Of a stretch of 64,000 nucleotides of DNA, positions 12,123 to 43,051 are shown piece by piece. This stretch comes from Streptomyces fumanus (GTDB lineage Bacteria > Actinomycetota > Actinomycetes > Streptomycetales > Streptomycetaceae), in NCBI RefSeq assembly GCF_014655295.1, contig NZ_BNBI01000013.1, positions 62,001-126,000 of the forward strand, read 5' to 3'. Below the pieces are notes generated by a model that was given only the letters and a program-made list of their open reading frames with translations, searched no databases and was not told where the DNA came from. The position numbers and the translations under genes were made by a program. Position 1 is the stretch's first letter, and each line of letters begins with the position of its first letter.

Positions 12123-12563
12123 ATGGCCAACGTCTCGCACCCCAGAGGTGACATCACGAGTCATCCCGACGCCCCGGAGATGCGGGCCAGATACGCCCGT
12201 ATGCTCGGCGGCCGCGATGTGGCGCTCGTGGACGGACCGGTGTTCCTGCTCGGTCTGTACTGCGCCGTGTCCCCGTGGATCCTCCACTTCACGGGGAGCC
12301 AGCCGTCGCTCGTCGCCCACAACCTGATCATCGGCATCGCGATCGGTCTGCTGGCGCTCGGGTTCACCCGGGCCCCGGAGCGCATGTACGGCCTGAGCTG
12401 GGCCATGTGCGCCATGGGCGTATGGATGATCGTCTCGCCCTGGATCGTGGGCACGCGCCCGGACGCTGGGGTCATCTGGAACAACGTCGTCATCGGCGCC
12501 CTCGCCCTGCTCCTCGGCGCGTTCTGCGCCGCCACGGCGGTGAAGAGCGCCCCCAGGCCGTAG
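12123..12563 (+). CDS. SPW-repeat membrane protein
   Basis: A 146-residue small membrane protein with four hydrophobic spans arranged as two repeats, each with the signature Ser-Pro-Trp: AVSPWILHFTG near residue 50 and MIVSPWIVGTRP near 102. The N-terminal 35 residues are hydrophilic. SPW repeat proteins are of unknown function. It lies 89 bases after the SDR gene; a hairpin follows. Confidence 0.85.
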   Translation: MANVSHPRGDITSHPDAPEMRARYARMLGGRDVALVDGPVFLLGLYCAVSPWILHFTGSQPSLVAHNLIIGIAIGLLALGFTRAPERMYGLSWAMCAMGVWMIVSPWIVGTRPDAGVIWNNVVIGALALLLGAFCAATAVKSAPRP

Positions 12564-25910: not shown

Positions 25911-26816
25911 TCATTCCGCCGGCGGGGAGGGCGGGACGACCGCGACGGGGGCCGCGGCGTGCAGCAGGACGGCGTGGGTGACCGAGCCCATCATGCGGGC
26001 CGGGGCCAGCAGGCGTCGCCGGTGCCGGCCGACGACCACGAGGTCGGCGTCGCGGGAGGCGGCGACCAGGTTGCCGGCCGCGTCGCCGGGGACGACGTGC
26101 GGCTCGGCCCGGACGCCGGGGTGCCGTTCGCGGTGGGGGGCGAGGAAGCCTTCGGCGAGGGCCCGGGTCTCGCTCGCCACCGCGGCCTCGTCGATCACCG
26201 GCGGCACCACCTGGCCGGGCGCGGTCCAGGCCGGTACCGGCCACGGGTAGGCGGCGACGGCCCGGACGCTCGCGCCGCGCGTGGCGGCCTCGGCGAAGGC
26301 GAAGGCGAGGGTGGCGTCGTCGGGGCTGTCGACCCGCAGCCCGGCCACCACGTGCGGGCCGGGTCCGGGCGGGGCCGCCTCGGCGGGCACCTCGCGGCCG
26401 GGGCGCGGTACGACGACGACCGGGCACTCGGCGTCGCGGGCGGCGGCCAGCGAGGCGGAGCCGAGCAGCAGGGCGGCGAAGCCGCCGCGGCCCCGGGAGC
26501 CGAGGACCAGGAGCTGGGCGTCGGCGGAGAGTTCGGGCAGGGCGGCGTTCGGGACGCCCTCGACGGCGAGGTACTCGGTGTCCGGCGGTCCGTCGCCGGC
26601 CCCCAGGTGGGCGCGGGCGGCGTCGAGGACCTCGTCCTCCTCCGGGTGGGGCGGGGCGACGGCCATGACGTCGGGCTGGGACCACACGGCGTACTGCCGC
26701 ACGTGGGCCACCCGCAGGGGTGCCGCGCGCCGGCGGGCGGCGTCCCGTGCCCAGTCCAGGGCGCGCAGGCTGTCGTCCGAACCGTCGACCGCGGCGACGA
26801 CCGGCAGGGTGCTCAT
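25911..26816 (-). CDS. Universal stress protein with two USP domains
   Basis: A 301-residue tandem USP. The first domain (about 1-145) starts LPVVAAVDGSDDSLRALDWA and ends with the ATP loop LGSRGRGGFAALLLGSASLA; the second (about 155-295) starts HVVAGLRVDSPDDATLAFAF and ends VVGRHRRRLLAPARMMGSVT, with the Gly/Ser loop less canonical than in the first. Tandem USPs bind ATP and are induced in stress and dormancy in actinobacteria. Cytoplasmic. Confidence 0.9.
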   Translation of the reverse strand: MSTLPVVAAVDGSDDSLRALDWARDAARRRAAPLRVAHVRQYAVWSQPDVMAVAPPHPEEDEVLDAARAHLGAGDGPPDTEYLAVEGVPNAALPELSADAQLLVLGSRGRGGFAALLLGSASLAAARDAECPVVVVPRPGREVPAEAAPPGPGPHVVAGLRVDSPDDATLAFAFAEAATRGASVRAVAAYPWPVPAWTAPGQVVPPVIDEAAVASETRALAEGFLAPHRERHPGVRAEPHVVPGDAAGNLVAASRDADLVVVGRHRRRLLAPARMMGSVTHAVLLHAAAPVAVVPPSPPAE

Positions 26817-33839: not shown

Positions 33840-34214
33840 TCAGCGCAGGGTGGCCAGGAAGTCCCCGCAGGCGCGGGCGCAGTCCCGGCACGCCGCCGCG
33901 CTCTCCTCGGCGCCCGGCTGCCGGTCGAAGACCTGGGCGGTCTCCAGGCACACCTGCCGGCACCACTCCACCTGGGCGCGGATGGCCGCCTCGTCGGCCT
34001 GGGTCTGCTCCGACAGCACCCGGCAGGTGGCGTCGCACACCTCGGCGCACATGATGCCCTTGCGGCGCACCTGTTCCTGGTTCTCGCTCCCGTCGGGGTC
34101 GACGAGGCTCGCCCGCAGCGCGCTGGCCCGGGCACACTCGGTGCAGGCTTGTGCGCAGGCGAAGCGATCCTCGAGAAACTGGAAGAGTTCCGCTTGAGAA
34201 GTCGTCGTCGTCGT
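33840..34214 (-). CDS. Cys-rich four-helix-bundle copper-binding protein (Csp-like, DUF326)
   Basis: A 124-residue protein with 11 Cys in helix-spaced pairs and triplets: CAQACTEC, MCAEVCDATC, WCRQVC and ACRDCARAC. This is the pattern of Csp/ferredoxin-like four-helix-bundle proteins that store Cu(I). No signal peptide is seen, so it is the cytosolic type, like Csp3. GTG start at 34214 (VTTTTTSQAELFQ). Copper storage is inferred from the family. Confidence 0.85.
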   Translation of the reverse strand, partial: TTTTTSQAELFQFLEDRFACAQACTECARASALRASLVDPDGSENQEQVRRKGIMCAEVCDATCRVLSEQTQADEAAIRAQVEWCRQVCLETAQVFDRQPGAEESAAACRDCARACGDFLATLR

Positions 34215-34349
34215 CACACCGCGCGAGTTGCCGCCGTCCCGGCCGCCAAACCCGCCGAGCCCGGTGTTCCCAAGGGGCGCGGCCCGTTTTCCGGTGCCCT
34301 CGCCGGGCACTCGTGCGGCCCAGCGAGCACGAGAACGGAAGGTGGCGAC

Positions 34350-34754
34350 ATGCCGGGACGACAGGAACTGCCGTCGACCCTGGAGCGGTCTCCCCAGGCG
34401 GCCCAGCGGACCTGGATCAAGGCGCACGACTCGGCCGTGCGGGAGTACGGCGAGGGCGAGCGCGCCCACCGGGTGGCGTTCGGCGCGCTCAAGCACAAGT
34501 TCGAGAAGGTCGGGGACCACTGGGAGCGCAAGGAGGGCGGGCGCAAGGGCCCCTCGGACTCCCGGTCGGCGCGGCCCCGCGGACAGGGCGGGCGCAGCGG
34601 CGAGGGCGTGGACGAGAGCGCCTCCAAGGAGCACCTGTACGACCTCGCCAAGCGACTGGACGTGCCGGGCCGTTCGCGGATGAGCAAGCCGGAGCTGCTC
34701 GACGCGATCCGCAAGGCCAACCGTTCCCGGACCCGGTCCGCGCGGTCGAGCTGA
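34350..34754 (+). CDS. ChaB-family protein with C-terminal Rho_N-like motif
   Basis: A 134-residue protein. Residues 1-70 are ChaB-like (LPSTLERSPQAAQRTWIKAH, ... YGEGERAHRVAFGALKHKFE). A Gly/Arg/Ser linker is followed by a Rho N-terminal/SAP-like helix pair (KEHLYDLAKRLDVPGRSRMS, KPELLDAIRKANR) at about 95-128. Very basic, so nucleic-acid binding is likely. ChaB domains are widespread and their exact role is unsettled. Confidence 0.83.
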   Translation: MPGRQELPSTLERSPQAAQRTWIKAHDSAVREYGEGERAHRVAFGALKHKFEKVGDHWERKEGGRKGPSDSRSARPRGQGGRSGEGVDESASKEHLYDLAKRLDVPGRSRMSKPELLDAIRKANRSRTRSARSS

Positions 34755-35704: not shown

Positions 35705-37270
35705 ATGCCGCTTCTCACCGGCACCCCCGTCGACCGGCAGGCCGCGCCGTCCGCGCGGCGCTGGTGGGCGCTGGGCGTGCTGTGCCTCAGCCTGCTGATC
35801 GTCGTCATGGCCAACACGTCCCTGATCGTCGCCGCCCCGGACATGACCCGGGACCTGGACCTGAGCAGCAGCGACCTGCAGTGGGTCATCGACGGCTACA
35901 CCGTCCCCTACGCCGCGCTGATGCTGGTGCTCGGCGCGATCGGCGACAAGTACAGCCGCCGGGGCGCCCTGGTGGCCGGGCTGCTCGTCTTCGCCGCCGG
36001 ATCGGTCGCCGGCAGCCTGGTGGACCGCACCGAACTGGTCGTCGCCGCCCGCGCGGTGATGGGCGTCGGCGCCGCCGTGGTCATGCCGGCCACGCTCTCG
36101 CTGCTGGTCGCCACCTTCCCCCGGGCCGAGCGGGCCCGGGCGATCACCGCCTGGACCGCCACCTCCGGGCTCGCCATAGCCGTCGGCCCGCTGGTCGCCG
36201 GCTGGCTCCTGGAGGACCACTCCTGGGGATCCACCTTCCTGATCAACGTGCCGATCGCGGTCGTCGCCGTCATCGGCGCGCTGACCCTGGTGCCGCCGTC
36301 CCGGGCCGCGGACATGGGCCGGATCGACTACGCCGGCGGTCTGCTGTCGATCGTCTCCGTCGGCTGCCTGGTCTACGCCGTCATCGAGGGCCCGCACTTC
36401 GGCTGGGGCACCGGCCCGGTCACCGCGGCCGTCGTCGCGGGCGCCGGACTGGTCGCCTTCACCCTCTGGGAGCTGCGGCACCCGCAGCCGATGCTGGACG
36501 TCCGCCGGTTCGCCCGGCGCCCGTTCAGCGGCTCGATGATCGCGGTGCTGTTCTTCTTCTTCGGCGCCTTCGGCTCCATCTACTACGCCACCCAGTACCT
36601 GCAGTTCGTGCTCGGCTACGGCGCCCTGGAGACCGGCGTCCGGCTGCTGCCGCTGGCCGGCGCGGTGTTCGCCGGCGCCGCGGTCACCGGGCGGCTCGCG
36701 CCGAAGGCGGGGGTACGGATCACCGTCGGCACCGGCATGGCCGTCGGCACCGTCGCCGTGCTGCTGCTCGCCCTGGTGGACAAGGGCGCGGACTACGGCG
36801 ACTTCCTGCCGTCGCTGCTGCTGCTCGGCTTCGCCATCGGGCTCAGCGTCTCCCCGGCCACCGACACCATCATGGGCTCGTTCCCCGAGTCCCAGCTCGG
36901 CGTCGGCGGCGGCGCCAACGACACCTCGCTGGAGCTGGGCGGCTCGCTCGGCATCGCCGTCCTGGGCTCGCTGCTCGGCACCGCCTACGCCGACAGGCTG
37001 GGCAGCCTGGCCGGCGGCAGGCTGCCGGGCGGCGCGCTGGACGCGGCCGAGGAGTCGGTGGGCGGCGGCCTCGCGGTCGCCGAACAGGTCGCCCGGGACC
37101 CGTCCGCCGGGCCCGCCCAGGCCCGGGCGCTGGTCGACGCCGTGCACGAGTCCTTCGCCCACGGCGTCGCCCGGACCAGCCTGATCGGCGGCATCGTCAT
37201 GGCCGTCGGCACACTGATCGTCCTGCTGGTGCTGCCCGGCCGGAAGGACCCCGCGCTCAGGGACGGATGA
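35705..37270 (+). CDS. DHA2-family MFS drug-efflux transporter
   Basis: A 521-residue membrane protein with about 14 hydrophobic spans, the drug:H+ antiporter-2 layout. Motif A GAIGDKYSRRGALVAG lies in the loop after span 2 and the antiporter motif C region GLAIAVGPLVAGWLLEDHSW in span 5. D1-type motif in span 1 is VVMANTSLIVAAPDM, where the usual LD is NT. ATG follows TAGGAGCCCCCGCG. Promoter carries two direct repeats. Substrate unknown; family members export antibiotics or dyes. Confidence 0.88.
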   Translation: MPLLTGTPVDRQAAPSARRWWALGVLCLSLLIVVMANTSLIVAAPDMTRDLDLSSSDLQWVIDGYTVPYAALMLVLGAIGDKYSRRGALVAGLLVFAAGSVAGSLVDRTELVVAARAVMGVGAAVVMPATLSLLVATFPRAERARAITAWTATSGLAIAVGPLVAGWLLEDHSWGSTFLINVPIAVVAVIGALTLVPPSRAADMGRIDYAGGLLSIVSVGCLVYAVIEGPHFGWGTGPVTAAVVAGAGLVAFTLWELRHPQPMLDVRRFARRPFSGSMIAVLFFFFGAFGSIYYATQYLQFVLGYGALETGVRLLPLAGAVFAGAAVTGRLAPKAGVRITVGTGMAVGTVAVLLLALVDKGADYGDFLPSLLLLGFAIGLSVSPATDTIMGSFPESQLGVGGGANDTSLELGGSLGIAVLGSLLGTAYADRLGSLAGGRLPGGALDAAEESVGGGLAVAEQVARDPSAGPAQARALVDAVHESFAHGVARTSLIGGIVMAVGTLIVLLVLPGRKDPALRDG

Positions 37271-38426
37271 CGGCGCGGACGCAGCCGTCCGTCTTCTCCT
37301 TGAACATCTCGTACGCCGTGGGCGCCTCGTCCAGCGAGAGGGTGTGGGTCGCCAGGTGGGCCGTCTTCAGCTCACCGGCGGCCAGCTTCTCCAGCAGGGT
37401 CGGGATGTAGCGCTGGCCGTGCATCTGGGCGCCGCGCACGGTCAGCCCCTTGTTGACGACGGCGCCCAGCGGGAACTTGTCGACGGCGCCCGCGAACACG
37501 CCGAGGACGAACACCGTGCCCGCCTTGCGGCAGGCGTGGATGGCCTGGCGCACCGCGGTGGGACGGTCGGTCTGCAACCGGAGCTGCTGCTTGGCCTGGT
37601 CGTACAGGTACGCGGGCCCGTCGCTGTGCGCCTCCATGCCGACGGCCTCGATGCACACGTCCGGTCCCCGCCCGCCGGTGCGTTCGCGCAGTTCGGCGGC
37701 GATGTCCGTGCGGGTGTAGTCGAGGGTCTCGGCACCCACGTACCGCTCGGTCATCGCCAGCCGTTCGGGGATACGGTCGATGGCGATGACCCGTTCCGCG
37801 CCCTTGAGGATCGCGGCCCTGGCGGCCATCTGGCCGACCGCGCCGCAGCCCCAGACCGCGACGACGTCACCCGGCCGGACACCGGCGAGGTCGGCGCCCA
37901 TCCAGCCGGTGGGCACCGAGTCGGAGACGAACAGGGCGCTGGTGTCGTCGATGCCCTCGGGGACCTGGAAGGCGCCGTAGTCGGCGAACGGCACCCGGAC
38001 GTACTCGGCGTGGCTGCCGCGCAGGCCGCCCATGGCGTGCGAGTAGCCGAAGATCCCGGCGGTCTCGTAGCCGAACAGCGCCTGTCCGATGCCGGGGTTG
38101 GTGTTGCTGTTGTCGCACAGGGACCACAGGTCGTTGGCGCAGTACCAGCAGCGTCCGCAGCCGATGAACGAGCAGACGACGACCCGGTCCCCCACCTTGT
38201 GCCGGCGCACCCCGGGCCCGGTCTCCACGACCTCGCCGAGGAACTCGTGCCCGATCACGTCACCGGCCCGCATCGCGGGGATGTAGCCGCCGATCAGGTG
38301 CAGATCGGAGCCGCAGGTGGTGCCCGCGATCAGCCGTACGATCATGTCCTGGTCGTTGCGCAGCTCGGGGTCCGGGACGTTCTCCACGGACAGCTTGTTC
38401 ACGCCTTCCCAGCACAGCGCCTTCAC
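37257..38426 (-). CDS. Zinc-dependent alcohol dehydrogenase (formaldehyde-dehydrogenase-like)
   Basis: A 389-residue medium-chain dehydrogenase. Catalytic zinc ligands: Cys in TTCGSDLHLIG and GHEFLGEVVETG; structural zinc Cys in CGRCWYCANDLWSLC; NAD site WGCGAVGQMAARAAILKGAE. The long insert and VTRCIEAVGMEAH-type segment place it with glutathione-independent formaldehyde dehydrogenase-like enzymes. The GTG start overlaps the stop of the upstream hypothetical gene (GTGA), so they are coupled. Its 3' end overlaps the convergent exporter by 14 bases. Confidence 0.87.
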   Translation of the reverse strand: MKALCWEGVNKLSVENVPDPELRNDQDMIVRLIAGTTCGSDLHLIGGYIPAMRAGDVIGHEFLGEVVETGPGVRRHKVGDRVVVCSFIGCGRCWYCANDLWSLCDNSNTNPGIGQALFGYETAGIFGYSHAMGGLRGSHAEYVRVPFADYGAFQVPEGIDDTSALFVSDSVPTGWMGADLAGVRPGDVVAVWGCGAVGQMAARAAILKGAERVIAIDRIPERLAMTERYVGAETLDYTRTDIAAELRERTGGRGPDVCIEAVGMEAHSDGPAYLYDQAKQQLRLQTDRPTAVRQAIHACRKAGTVFVLGVFAGAVDKFPLGAVVNKGLTVRGAQMHGQRYIPTLLEKLAAGELKTAHLATHTLSLDEAPTAYEMFKEKTDGCVRAVIRP

Positions 38427-38884
38427 AGCACCCCCTCCCCTCCGGCTCGGCGGGTGACCATCTCGACCAGCTTGCCGCCCGGGGTCGGGCGGGTGGTCGG
38501 CGGGGCGTCGGGCAGCAGGACCTCCCCGGCCTCCAGCAGGGCCTTGGCCCGGCGCAGCGCCAGCCGCAGCTCCTGCCGCGGGTCCTCGCCCGCGAGCCGG
38601 GCCGGCAGCGAGGTCTGCCCGGCCGTGGGCACCTGGACCGGCCGGACGGCCAGTTCGGTGCCGCGGTCGCCCGGGGCCGGGCGGACCCGTACCTCGATCT
38701 TGCCGGGGAACGCGGCGAGGGGCTCGGGCAGGTCGTCCGGCGAGACCTCGGCGAGCGGCCGGTTGACCGTCACCGTGAGCCACCGGTCTCCCGCCCGGTC
38801 GTCGGCCGTCCGGCCCGACCGCGCCTTGCGCACCGCCGCGACCGAGGCGGCGGCGACCGGAATCGTCCACCACACCTTCTTCAT
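38423..38884 (-). CDS. Hypothetical protein with N-terminal hydrophobic segment, coupled to ADH
   Basis: A 153-residue protein starting MKKVWWTIPVAAASVAAVRK, which may be a short signal anchor. The rest has a WLTVTVNRPLAEVSPDDLPE strand-turn pattern and GTELAVRPVQVP, resembling an SRPBCC-like fold (START/polyketide cyclase), followed by RLALRRAKALLEAGEVLLPD. Its stop overlaps the ADH start, implying co-regulation. No function can be assigned. Confidence 0.6.
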   Translation of the reverse strand: MKKVWWTIPVAAASVAAVRKARSGRTADDRAGDRWLTVTVNRPLAEVSPDDLPEPLAAFPGKIEVRVRPAPGDRGTELAVRPVQVPTAGQTSLPARLAGEDPRQELRLALRRAKALLEAGEVLLPDAPPTTRPTPGGKLVEMVTRRAGGEGVL

Positions 38885-39013: not shown

Positions 39014-39604
39014 TCAGCGGTCTCCCATGGCCTTGCGGACGGCGTCCTTGGTGCTGTCCATGAGGACGGCGACCGGACCGAGGGCCATGTTCTTGGCGCC
39101 GGACTCCACGCCCGGGTGCGGGCGGGTGGGCGCCATCGCCTCGGCGGCCTTCAGCGCACGGGCCATCGCGGCCAGGTTGGCGGTGTCGGCGCTGCGCCGG
39201 ATGTGGGTGAACTCGTAGCGTTCCTCGGCCCGGGCGTGCCGCTGCACATCGCTGCGCAGCGCCACGAGCCGGGGCAGGAACGCCGGGTCGTCGGTGTCCA
39301 TCTCGTCCAGCGCGGCGAGGGTCTCCTTCGCCGCGCGTTCCTCGGCGAGCCGGTCCTCGACGACCGCCTCGCCGCCCGGCAGGCCCCGCCGGGCGAAGGG
39401 GTGGACGACCTCCTCCTCGGCGGTCTCGTGCACGGCCAGCAGCCGCACCAGGCGGCGGAAGGCGTCCCGGCGCTCCTCGCCCGAGGCGGCCTCGACCTCG
39501 TCGAAGAGGTTGCGGATGTCGCCGTGCTGCCGCATGAGCAGGGAGACCACGTCGTCGTCCTTGGCGTGGTCGTCCCCGGCGTGCGGGGTGTACGTCCCGG
39601 TCAT
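39014..39604 (-). CDS. Hemerythrin-like (HHE) domain protein
   Basis: A 196-residue protein with the HHE cation-binding helical bundle: RQHGDIRNLFDEVEAAS, LAVHETAEEEVVHPFARRG and HARAEERYEFTHIRR, giving the His/Glu ligands of a non-heme diiron site. The C-terminal 60 residues lie outside the domain. Hemerythrins bind O2, NO or iron. It lies 10 bases downstream of the ferritin-like gene, so the two form a unit. Confidence 0.88.
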   Translation of the reverse strand: MTGTYTPHAGDDHAKDDDVVSLLMRQHGDIRNLFDEVEAASGEERRDAFRRLVRLLAVHETAEEEVVHPFARRGLPGGEAVVEDRLAEERAAKETLAALDEMDTDDPAFLPRLVALRSDVQRHARAEERYEFTHIRRSADTANLAAMARALKAAEAMAPTRPHPGVESGAKNMALGPVAVLMDSTKDAVRKAMGDR

Positions 39605-39614
39605 GGCGTCCCCC

Positions 39615-40814
39615 TCACTTCTCGCGCATCGCGGGGTCGGGGTGCGCGCCCTCGGACTGCACCCGGTACTCCCGGCCGAACATCTCGTTGTGCTCGGCCA
39701 TCACCCGGTCGCTCGGCGGGGCCTCGCCGCCGTGGATCTGCTCCTGCATCCGCTCGAACCGCTCGTGCGCCTCCCGGACGTAGCCCGCGCCGAGCGTGGT
39801 CAGGTCCATCTGGGTGTCGAGGAGTTCGCGCAGGTACTGCTTGTTCGGCTCGAAGGTGAGCACGTTGGGCAGCTCGGGCGCCAGGACCTGCTGGGGGTCG
39901 CGGCCGTCGTGGCGGCGCATCAGGTCGCAGGCGACGTGCAGGTGCTCCAGCTCCATGTTCAGGTGCAGCTCCCAGATCGCCTTGACCTTGGGGTCGCTCT
40001 CCTGCTCCATGAAGGAGTAGTACAGGTAGCACTCGTTGTACTCGTGGTTGACGAGCTGCTCCCACCAGGTCTCCCCCGGGTCCACCAGGGACTCGTAGTG
40101 GGTGACGTGCTCCTCCTCGATCAGCCCGATCTCCTGGTACAACTGGCGGGCGATCGGCTCCATGTAGGTGGGGCCGGTGTTCATGTAGAAGTTCATGGTC
40201 TGCTGCTCGGTCGACATGATCGTCAGCGCGTGCAGCTTGGACAGCGGGTTCGTGGTGTTCTTGTCGTACGGGTCGCGGACGTTGTCGACCGGGTCGCGGT
40301 GGTGGAACCGGGTGGGCCGGCCGGGCATGACCTCGGTGAGGTTGTCGACGATCGACTCCGCCTTGCGGTGCTCGATCATCTCGTACAGGTTGGCGTACCG
40401 GTACAGGTGGTCGAAGTCCTCCAGCACGCCGAACTGGTACGCCTGCTTCAGGTACGGGTCCGGCTCCATCCGGGCCACCCAGGCCGTCAGGTCCACCGCG
40501 ACCTGCTCGTAGGCGATGGTGGTCTCCAGCACCGAGGAGACGCCGGGCAGCAGCCAGTTCACGACCTTCTGCTGCTGGGCCTCGATGTACCGGGTGCGGG
40601 CCAACTGCCGCTTGATCTCGGGGTCGGGACAGTGCCGGGCGAGCTGGTGGCTGAAGAGGATCGCCTCCACCTCGATCCCGTTCATGGTGATGATCCGGCA
40701 CCGGGTGTACGGGTCGCACCGGTCCGGGTCGATGGGCTCCACGTTCAGCTCACGCCAACTGCGCACCTGGCGGTCGAGCGGGATGCCCCGCTGCTCCAGC
40801 GGGTTGAAGGTCAT
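39615..40814 (-). CDS. Ferritin-like diiron protein (unassigned, 399 aa)
   Basis: Rich in helix and carries repeated Glu/His metal patterns: LEDFDH (about residues 131-136), YEMIEH (144-149), STEQQTMNFY (201), GLIEEEHVTH (230-239), SFMEQE (267) and LNMELEHLHVA (285-295). Two half-sites of ExxH type fit a ferritin-like non-heme diiron fold. At 399 residues it is much larger than rubrerythrin, bacterioferritin or Dps, and I cannot name its family. The ATG has CAGGAGG eight bases upstream. Next to a hemerythrin gene in the same direction. Oxidase or oxygen-sensing function is inference. Confidence 0.75.
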   Translation of the reverse strand: MTFNPLEQRGIPLDRQVRSWRELNVEPIDPDRCDPYTRCRIITMNGIEVEAILFSHQLARHCPDPEIKRQLARTRYIEAQQQKVVNWLLPGVSSVLETTIAYEQVAVDLTAWVARMEPDPYLKQAYQFGVLEDFDHLYRYANLYEMIEHRKAESIVDNLTEVMPGRPTRFHHRDPVDNVRDPYDKNTTNPLSKLHALTIMSTEQQTMNFYMNTGPTYMEPIARQLYQEIGLIEEEHVTHYESLVDPGETWWEQLVNHEYNECYLYYSFMEQESDPKVKAIWELHLNMELEHLHVACDLMRRHDGRDPQQVLAPELPNVLTFEPNKQYLRELLDTQMDLTTLGAGYVREAHERFERMQEQIHGGEAPPSDRVMAEHNEMFGREYRVQSEGAHPDPAMREK

Positions 40815-41217
40815 GGGGGTGCCTCCTGACGACGAGGGGGGAAAGCCGCACGCGGGACGGGGGTACCCCGTTACGGGCGACAGGCACGGCCTTTCTTCGC
40901 AGTCTGTCCGCGCAGGGCGGGTTCGGGCCATCCCGGACGCCCATGGGTGGCGGGGTTCCCTCTGCTGGGTCAACCGGCGCGGCGATCCGCCCGCGGGGCG
41001 GCCCCGGTGGCCGGTCGCCGGGTGCGCCGGGTGCGGCGGGCGCGGGCGGGGTCCGGCGGGGCCGGTGGCGCCGGGATCGGGGCGGCGGGCGGGGTGGCGC
41101 CGCCCCGGCCCTGGTGGTACGGGAGGGCCGGGGCGGCGGGGACGGCCGGGTCCTGGACGCGACGGTGGCCGGGAAACGCCGGTCGGTGGGCTCTGCGGTC
41201 GGTGGGCTCTGCGGTCG
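40815..41217. other. Intergenic region with 16-bp tandem repeat
   Basis: No gene supported in 403 bases, although long open frames occur because of high GC. It holds the diiron gene's promoter region on the left, a small CCGCCC-GCG-GGGCGG hairpin at 40987-41001, and two copies of GGTCGGTGGGCTCTGC at 41181-41196 and 41197-41212 followed by GGTCG at 41213-41217, ending at the XRE stop. Confidence 0.6.
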
Positions 41218-42063
41218 TCAGGCGCCGGTCGTGAGGTGCCGCTCCGGCGCCGGGGCCGTCGTACGGAGGGATGCGAGGGCGGCGGCCGTGGCGCCGGCGG
41301 GTTCGGCCTGGTAGACGATGAGCTGCTGGTGCGGGGCGCCGTTGACGGTGAACGCGGCGAACGCGATGTGCAGGTCGCCCACCCGGGGGTGCCTGAGGTG
41401 CTTGCCGTCCTGGGACTTGACCTCGACCTCGTGCAGGCTCCAGAGGGCGGCGAACTCCTCGCTCGCGGCGGACAGTTCCGCCACCACCTCGGCGATGCGG
41501 GCCGAGCCGGGATCGTGCCCGTACGCCGCCCTCAGCTCGGCGACGCAGGAGTGCGCGGTCCGGTCCCACTCCTGGTAGAAGTCCCGGCCCGCCGGGTCGG
41601 CGAAGACCATCCGGGCCAGGTTGTCGAACGCCTCGAAGCCGTCGTGCAGGGCGGTGGCGAGCGCGTTGCCGGCGAGGACGTCGAGGGCGGGGCCGAGGAC
41701 GAAGGCGGGCGTGTGCTCCCACGACTCCATCAACCGGAGCAACTGGCCGCTCACTTCACCGTGCTCCGCGGCACCGGGGCGCCGGTGGGCGGCGAGGCGG
41801 AGCCGGTGGAGGTGGCCGGTGGCCTCCGCGTCGAGCCTCAGGGCCTGCGCCACCGCGTCGAGGACCTGCGGGGAGGGGCTGTTCTCCCGGCCCTGCTCCA
41901 GCCTGATGTAGTAGTCGGAGCTGACCCCGGCCAGCAGCGCGACTTCCTCTCTGCGCAGTCCCGGGACCCGGCGCCGGCCGTGCTCCGGAAGGCCGACATC
42001 GCGCGGCTTGAGGGCCTCGCGGCGGGCTCTGAGGAATTCCCCCAAGGGCGTCGCATCGCTCAT
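41218..42063 (-). CDS. XRE-family regulator, MmyB-like (paralogue A)
   Basis: A 281-residue regulator. Residues about 9-70 are a helix-turn-helix (LGEFLRARREALKPRDVGLP, RRVPGLRREEVALLAGVSSD, YYIRLEQGRENSPSPQVLDA). The C-terminal MmyB-type ligand-binding domain (about 100-270, PAS-like) has AFVLGPALDVLAGNALATAL and DNLARMVFADPAGRDFYQEW. It is divergent from and similar to the gene at 42206. Such pairs often control nearby oxidoreductases or each other. Confidence 0.88.
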   Translation of the reverse strand: MSDATPLGEFLRARREALKPRDVGLPEHGRRRVPGLRREEVALLAGVSSDYYIRLEQGRENSPSPQVLDAVAQALRLDAEATGHLHRLRLAAHRRPGAAEHGEVSGQLLRLMESWEHTPAFVLGPALDVLAGNALATALHDGFEAFDNLARMVFADPAGRDFYQEWDRTAHSCVAELRAAYGHDPGSARIAEVVAELSAASEEFAALWSLHEVEVKSQDGKHLRHPRVGDLHIAFAAFTVNGAPHQQLIVYQAEPAGATAAALASLRTTAPAPERHLTTGA

Positions 42064-42205: not shown

Positions 42206-43051
42206 ATGGACATCGACGAGCGCCCCGACCCGGCGGAGGGACTGGGCGGGTTCCTGCGCTCCCGGCGGGAACGCCTGGCCCCCGCGGACGTGGGCCTGTC
42301 CGGCGGCGGACGCCGGCGGGTACCGGGGCTGCGGCGGGACGAGGTCGCCGCGCTGGCCGGTGTCAGCGCCGGCTACTACGTACGGCTGGAGCAGGGCCGC
42401 GAGTGCCACCCCTCGCACCGGGTGCTCGACGCGGTGGCGCGGGTGCTGCGACTGGACGACGCCGACCGGCGGGAGCTGTTCCGCCTGGCCCGGCCCACCG
42501 CCCGCCGGATGCGGGCCCCCGTCCGCGTCGAGCGCCCCGGGGCGCACTTGTGCCGGCTCATCGAGGGGTGGACCCGGACGCCCGCGTTCATCGTCGGCCA
42601 CGCGCAGGACATCCTGGTGGCCAACGACCTCGCCGAGGCGCTCTACTCCGACTTCGCCCAGCGGGACAACGTGCTGCGGATGCTGTTCCTCGACCCGGCG
42701 GCGGGGTCCTTCTACCGCGGCCCCGAACGGGCCCGGCAGCGCGCCGTGGCCGACCTGCGGGCCACCGCCGCGCGGACCCCCGACGACCCGCGCGTCCTGG
42801 AGCTGGTGGGCGAACTGGCCGTGCGCAGCGCCGGCTTCCGCTCGCTGTGGGCCCGGGAGTACCCGCGGGTGCCGCCCTACGAGGTCGAGCGCGTGCACCA
42901 CTCACGCGTCGGTGACATGGAGCTGCGCCACGAGGCGCTGGCCATCCGCAGCGCCCCGGGGCAGCAGCTCGTCGTCCTCCAGGCGGAGCCGGACTCCCCG
43001 TCCGCCGACGCGCTCGCCCTCCTCGGCTCGCTGGACGCCATGGCGAGGTGA
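42206..43051 (+). CDS. XRE-family regulator, MmyB-like (paralogue B)
   Basis: A 281-residue regulator, the same length as the divergent paralogue. The HTH (LGGFLRSRRERLAPADVGLS, RRVPGLRRDEVAALAGVSAG, YYVRLEQGRECHPSHRVLDA) is close to paralogue A. The MmyB-like domain has TPAFIVGHAQDILVANDLAE and DNVLRMLFLDPAAGSFYRGP. Ligand unknown. It ends 168 bases from the convergent alpha-galactosidase. Confidence 0.88.
   Translation: MDIDERPDPAEGLGGFLRSRRERLAPADVGLSGGGRRRVPGLRRDEVAALAGVSAGYYVRLEQGRECHPSHRVLDAVARVLRLDDADRRELFRLARPTARRMRAPVRVERPGAHLCRLIEGWTRTPAFIVGHAQDILVANDLAEALYSDFAQRDNVLRMLFLDPAAGSFYRGPERARQRAVADLRATAARTPDDPRVLELVGELAVRSAGFRSLWAREYPRVPPYEVERVHHSRVGDMELRHEALAIRSAPGQQLVVLQAEPDSPSADALALLGSLDAMAR

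Follow-up and report, generated by a model that had tools for sequence, protein, structure and literature searches.

The window, the whole 64,000-nucleotide stretch of DNA that was analysed, carries on its minus strand two adjacent genes that encode a 399-residue protein (P0001) and a 196-residue hemerythrin (P0002). Both open reading frames lie exactly where the earlier note had placed them, with the pairing it gave, and both display a coding-like codon-position GC content, with GC3 values of 0.99 for P0001 and 0.96 for P0002. The P0001 stop and the P0002 start are separated by 10 nt, and this short gap, together with the conserved gene order, makes a common transcript very likely. P0001 is a real gene, since full-length relatives with 42–97% identity occur across actinomycetes, Alpha- and Betaproteobacteria and Clostridia. 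The next genes downstream of the pair encode a Zn-dependent dehydrogenase and a 153-residue protein (Table 1). An operon joining these two genes to the pair was rejected, as they travel with it in a minority of loci and at varying positions; in that minority they lie near the P0001-type gene in both orientations. Inspection by eye also located two divergent, similar 281-residue helix-turn-helix-type regulators just upstream (41218–42063, minus strand, and 42206–43051, plus strand) and, elsewhere in the window, stress-type genes that encode a Cys-rich four-helix copper-binding-like protein (33840–34217), a ChaB-like protein (34350–34754), a universal stress protein (25911–26816) and an SPW-repeat protein (12123–12563).

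Table 1 Features of the P0001–P0002 locus, in window coordinates
Feature	Position	Strand	Description
GGGTAC	40863–40868	−	Resembles the −10 element of a sigma-B-type promoter; lies 54 nt before the P0001 start codon
P0001	39615–40814	−	399 residues; ATG start; ORF and translation; predicted tandem ferritin-like dimetal protein
Hairpin 1 (helices A1, B1)	40536–40718	−	Residues 33–93; E48, E78, Q81, also conserved E50, H56; AF2 helices 35–61, 65–88; alignment A1 and register scan
Hairpin 2 (helices C1, D1)	40371–40541	−	Residues 92–148; E103, D133, H136; AF2 helices 95–116, 120–148; alignment A1 and register scan
Linker	40254–40370	−	Residues 149–187; G165-R166-P167 and D177 invariant even at 20–25% identity; low pLDDT at 161–178
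Hairpin 3 (helices A2, B2)	40077–40253	−	Residues 188–246; E203, E233, H236; AF2 helices 190–216, 220–244; alignment A1 and register scan
Hairpin 4 (helices C2, D2)	39906–40076	−	Residues 247–303; E258, E261, E288, H291; rubrerythrin-like ExxE and ExxH; AF2 helices 250–271, 275–303; alignment A1 and register scan
C-terminal extension	39618–39905	−	Residues 304–399; conserved among close relatives (alignment A1); short helices in model
P0002	39014–39604	−	196-residue hemerythrin (HHE) protein; ATG start; PF01814; H-HxxxE-HxxxE ligand pattern
153-residue protein	38423–38884	−	No family; overlaps the Zn-dependent dehydrogenase gene
Zn-dependent dehydrogenase	37257–38426	−	Weakly fdhA_non_GSH-like (148 vs 637 bits)

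Family and architecture of P0001

P0001 reaches the cut-off of no Pfam or NCBIfam model. It scores 18.5 bits against PF22277 (EncFtn-like; cut-off 27) and 19.4 bits against TIGR04535 (encapsulin-associated ferritin; cut-off 125), and PF02915 (rubrerythrin) is absent from its matches in the Pfam scan, placing P0001 below that gathering cut-off. A distant member of the family (L087) exceeds the PF02915 cut-off, with 26.1 versus 22.8 bits. The P0001 translation contains no CxxC pair of a rubredoxin FeS4 domain. Phmmer searches against PDB sequences returned no match for P0001 or P0002, and the profile of a cross-phylum alignment (A1) retrieved from the PDB mainly EncB/EncFtn-type proteins together with other diiron bundles, all of them weakly. 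The EncB profile match to hairpin 3 is ungapped, with the Glu and the ExxH aligned.

The closest relatives of P0001 are Streptomyces proteins with 97% identity (the source genome measures 8.15 Mb). Full-length relatives were retrieved from actinomycetes (59–97%), Tistrella (54%), Pandoraea plasmids (42%) and a Clostridia plasmid record labelled Subdoligranulum (44%), and more distant ones, with 20–25% identity, from genomes of the same phylum. The distribution is patchy: the family is present in 37 of 199 genomes of the genus sample (two of these hold remnants only), in 44/394 genomes of the class sample and in 10/296 of the phylum sample. Scans of viral contigs for more diverse relatives yielded a single fragment (L096). 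The family, present in about a fifth of the Streptomyces genomes sampled and also in several other phyla, is nevertheless named "hypothetical protein" in the annotated records. The two remnants (L154:4615-4775 and L153:4401-4571) retain only N-terminal pieces of a P0001-type gene, and one genome of family f85 carries a second gene copy that an apparent frameshift splits near residue 301 (L149:4126-5323). No named double ferritin-like family was found in a literature search that covered few subscription journals. Within that scope P0001 is a previously undescribed variant in the ferritin-like superfamily, and not a new fold.

When alignment A1 was split, residues 30–160 of P0001 proved homologous to residues 185–315, with 128 aligned columns and an hhalign P of 1.3e-17. 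The probability of a match is 96% for hairpins 1/3 and 2/4, with reversed controls far lower, and the pairs 1/4, 2/3 and 1/2 display weak matches in the same register, with reversed controls mostly lower. As judged from sequence comparison, P0001 consists of a ferritin-like four-helix unit duplicated in tandem and comprises four helical hairpins. The earlier note had considered the protein far longer than small ferritins; its length is indeed unusual and is explained by the presence of two four-helix units. A scan of conserved acidic and His/Gln columns at spacings of 20–44 showed that spacing 30 yields four conserved sets of E to (E/D)xx(H/Q) and every other spacing at most two. These E-x29-(E/D)xx(H/Q) sets, E48/E78/Q81, E103/D133/H136, E203/E233/H236 and E258/E288/H291, would be enough for two dimetal sites. 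They bear out the several ExxH-type motifs described earlier, with E233xxH236, E288xxH291 and D133xxH136 conserved and E78xxQ81 replacing the fourth. The spacing of 30 and the +3 step of the EncFtn-type Glu-x29-Glu-x2-His hairpin are found in all four hairpins, the exceptions being Gln for His in hairpin 1 and Asp for the second Glu in hairpin 2. The second half of P0001 displays the rubrerythrin/sulerythrin pattern E, ExxH, ExxE, ExxH through E203, E233xxH236, E258xxE261 and E288xxH291, and the first half deviates from it at Q81, A106 and D133.

AlphaFold2, supplied with 51 sequences of which nearly all are 84–97% identical, modelled P0001 as two four-helix bundles (mean pLDDT 68, pTM 0.72). 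In VIA-align comparisons, model residues 93–247 fit bacterioferritin over 122–123 residues at 1.8–2.3 Å (Z about 12), and a separate fit covers about 125 residues spanning positions 31–306. The Z values of 12–13.6 are near background for helical bundles, and the assignment to the ferritin-like fold thus rests jointly on the model, the ligand register and the profile matches. A Foldseek search of the PDB with the whole model gave no E value under 0.001, its top rows being long-helix lookalikes with TM scores of about 0.12–0.19 that were discarded. P0001 displays both the predicted four-helix bundle and the paired Glu/ExxH ligands of the ferritin-like superfamily, the model confidence being moderate. 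The fitted ranges indicate that hairpins 2 and 3 form one bundle of the model and hairpins 1 and 4 the other. In agreement with this, helices B and C are joined by only about six residues in each half, too short for the ferritin crossover along the bundle, and the linker of about 40 residues (149–189) is long enough for such a crossover. A swapped arrangement, sulerythrin-like but within a single chain, is favoured by the short loops and the model, with the linker as the probable crossover between bundles. An invariant Gly-Arg-Pro and Asp are unusual for an inter-domain linker. The putative ligands would be E103, D133, H136, E203, E233 and H236 in the bundle from hairpins 2 and 3, and E48, E78, Q81, E258, E261, E288 and H291 in the bundle from hairpins 1 and 4.

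Hemerythrin partner and promoter

The neighbour of P0001 is a hemerythrin, as the earlier note had proposed. P0002 matches PF01814 with 59.6 bits against a cut-off of 25.3, and its ligand residues H27, H59-x3-E63 and H123-x3-E127 are invariant in all aligned relatives. It scores 25.6 bits against the PA2171 persister protein family (NF053874), well under the equivalog cut-off of 190. Among the 80 closest loci, a P0002 relative adjoins the P0001 gene in all 79 that could be tested, the contig of the remaining one ending 47 nt past the gene. Similarly, all 39 non-remnant copies in the Streptomyces sample have a hemerythrin within 180 nt, and every P0002 relative of at least 69% identity in that sample adjoins a P0001 gene. 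Over all loci read, and with some overlapping records of one gene included in the counts, the hemerythrin gene follows on the same strand in 100, is convergent in 12, divergent in 8 and precedes on the same strand in 1, always within 235 nt. Adjacency thus survives changes in orientation, which points to a functional link that goes further than a simple operon. In one remnant (L154) residues 1–47 of P0001 are fused to residues 174–194 of P0002, likely the scar of a joint deletion. The link between P0001 and the hemerythrin is strong, and this strict pairing provides a concrete lead on the role of some stand-alone bacterial hemerythrins.

Some loci display other partners. In Tistrella the next gene downstream of the P0001 relative encodes a hemerythrin-DUF892 fusion; the gene (L091:9272-10411) is recorded as DUF892 and actually carries an N-terminal hemerythrin. 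Pandoraea and one distant lineage carry DUF892 or ferritin genes beside the P0001 relative. In family f85 a partner of about 214 residues (alignment A4) lies directly downstream in place of the hemerythrin, and three of its loci (L140, L141 and L143) hold a different hemerythrin gene within about 3 kb (two tested). The partner in family f76 is related to that of f85 and weakly DUF892-like. This replacement protein (L140-L150 in f85, L146-L147 in f76) has a degenerate ferritin-like/DUF892 look, with no Pfam match above cut-off. One f84 genome (L156) has no hemerythrin neighbour, and another genome (L152) has an apparently truncated hemerythrin. No hemerythrin neighbour was seen at the Clostridia and anaerobe-type loci, suggesting that the core activity of P0001 does not always depend on hemerythrin.

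The promoter region was compared with the Streptomyces sigma-B consensus GNNTN-N14-16-GGGTAY (PMC5402319; PMC3613396). In the window only the −10 half upstream of P0001 fits, the −35 half not being a strict match. GGGTAC occurs within 150 nt upstream of 53 of 80 P0001 orthologues, mostly about 40–60 nt before the start, whereas 32 of 307 intergenic regions taken from these loci as controls contain it (Fisher p = 3e-23, a value that is too small because related sequences are not independent). The full strict consensus is modestly enriched (15/80 versus 14/307) and fails in the window, and the claim is therefore limited to the GGGTAC half. Promoters of this type also drive Streptomyces dps (PMC3613396). 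P0001 is thus probably under sigma-B-type control in streptomycetes, and the promoter evidence points to general stress and not to O2 or NO in particular. The recurrent, unordered neighbours of P0001 loci resemble general-stress genes by eye. The metabolic neighbours are inconsistent, the hemerythrin alone being constant.

Possible functions

The architecture of P0001 is well supported and the pair probably serves in stress protection; the activity itself is inferred. The reading tentatively preferred here, which still falls short of being probable, is that P0001 is a stress-induced diiron protein that consumes peroxide or O2, or oxidises Fe(II), and works with a hemerythrin-like protein. P0001 would be a pseudo-dimer, within a single chain, of a ferritin domain of the rubrerythrin/EncFtn type. 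Its four hairpins, to each of which belong a Glu and an (E/D)xx(H/Q) motif, would combine as two four-helix bundles with one predicted dimetal site, probably diiron, in each. In streptomycetes it would be made together with the hemerythrin-like diiron protein, probably from the sigma-B-type promoter. During osmotic or oxidative stress H2O2 or O2 may react at the diferrous sites and be reduced to water or used for Fe(II) oxidation, thus holding down Fenton chemistry. The hemerythrin may hand on iron or electrons or deal with a linked substrate, be it peroxide, O2 or NO. A rubrerythrin-type peroxidase would here work without a built-in electron donor, as P0001 lacks a rubredoxin domain or CxxC pair. 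Against this reading, P0001 stays below every family cut-off, and f85, f76, the Clostridia and some other families have no hemerythrin neighbour. The suggestion of an unnamed diiron system, made in the earlier note, holds as regards the ferritin-like fold, the dimetal-type ligand sets, the unnamed family and the strong co-conservation with the hemerythrin, while the promoter favours general stress over O2 or NO specifically. It is possible, although rather doubtful, that the pair constitutes a two-component diiron system of an enzyme-pair type not described before, in which a hairpin-swapped double ferritin-like chain with two unlike dimetal sites is physically partnered with the hemerythrin and removes peroxide, O2 or NO.

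The closest rival, unlikely as the chief role although it could hold alongside the preferred reading, is that P0001 acts mainly as a Dps-/EncFtn-like ferroxidase or iron sequesterer, by which Fe(II) would be oxidised under stress and the Fe(III) retained or handed on, while the hemerythrin would buffer O2 or peroxide for it. The Glu/Glu/His spacing of the EncFtn ferroxidase centre, the EncB/EncFtn top profile matches, the DUF892 or ferritin genes beside relatives in several lineages and the sigma-B-type promoters of Streptomyces dps are all consistent with such a role; however, no encapsulin gene was recognised at the loci, nothing points to a cage or a cargo role, and the ExxE of helix C2 resembles rubrerythrin/sulerythrin and not EncFtn. 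An improbable alternative is that P0001 oxygenates or oxidises an organic substrate as a diiron enzyme, which the hemerythrin would supply with O2 or shield. The site of four carboxylates and two His residues in hairpins 2 and 3, the uncommon second site and the GRP...D linker, which is invariant at 20% identity and could form a pocket, suit this chemistry, but no metabolic neighbour is consistent and relatives occur in anaerobe-type genomes. It is quite improbable that P0001 is a regulatory or structural stress protein whose metal sites, with no turnover, sense redox or keep the fold stable. In several bacteria O2 and redox are sensed by hemerythrin domains (PMC9388753), and Q81 occupies one site where His is expected, but almost every carboxylate position shows strong conservation from phylum to phylum and P0001 has no output domain. 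Least probable of all is an NO-linked system in which P0002, a stand-alone hemerythrin-like protein, acts like the NO peroxidase HLP of Mycobacterium kansasii and P0001 helps to remove NO or peroxide, as published descriptions confine the HLP class to mycobacteria and give it distinct ligands (a comparison with P0002 by description only), no NO-related genes were recognised among the neighbours at P0001 loci and nothing points to NO specifically.

Comparison with known systems

Stand-alone hemerythrin-like proteins, such as M. kansasii HLP, a diiron protein that works as an NO peroxidase and is also a weak catalase (PMC8913304), and the PA2171 family, resemble P0002 as stand-alone HHE proteins with conserved His/Glu ligands. 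This likeness covers the partner only and, unlike them, P0002 is tied to a ferritin-like protein. P0001 shares with bacterioferritin and Dps the dimetal ligand logic, a model bundle that superposes on bacterioferritin and, with Streptomyces dps, the probable sigma-B-type promoter; in contrast, there is no match at the sequence level, the predicted topology pairs hairpins across the duplication and nothing indicates a cage. EncFtn, which binds iron through Glu32, Glu62 and His65 (PMC5012862), and EncB (PF22277, TIGR04535) display a Glu, Glu, His spacing identical to that of P0001 and give its best profile matches, and in EncFtn, as predicted for P0001, the hairpin is the building unit and the site is formed between two hairpins. 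However, P0001 holds four hairpins in one chain instead of a single hairpin of ~100 residues, it scores only 18–19 bits against these models, and no encapsulin gene was recognised among its recurrent neighbours at the loci.

Rubrerythrin and sulerythrin (PF02915; erythrin branch) share with P0001 the four-helix bundles and the E/ExxH/ExxE/ExxH order of its second half. They differ in that P0001 fuses two units in one chain, has an E-to-E spacing of 30 instead of 33–34, carries the Q81 and D133 variants in its first half, lacks the rubredoxin domain and falls below the PF02915 cut-off. Sulerythrin is a domain-swapped erythrin dimer with ligands E20/E53/H56/E92/E95/E126/H129 (PMC12833474), and the short B–C loops of P0001 suggest a similarly swapped pairing. 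P0001 would thus be the natural single-chain counterpart of this dimer, in which the two sites could evolve separately.
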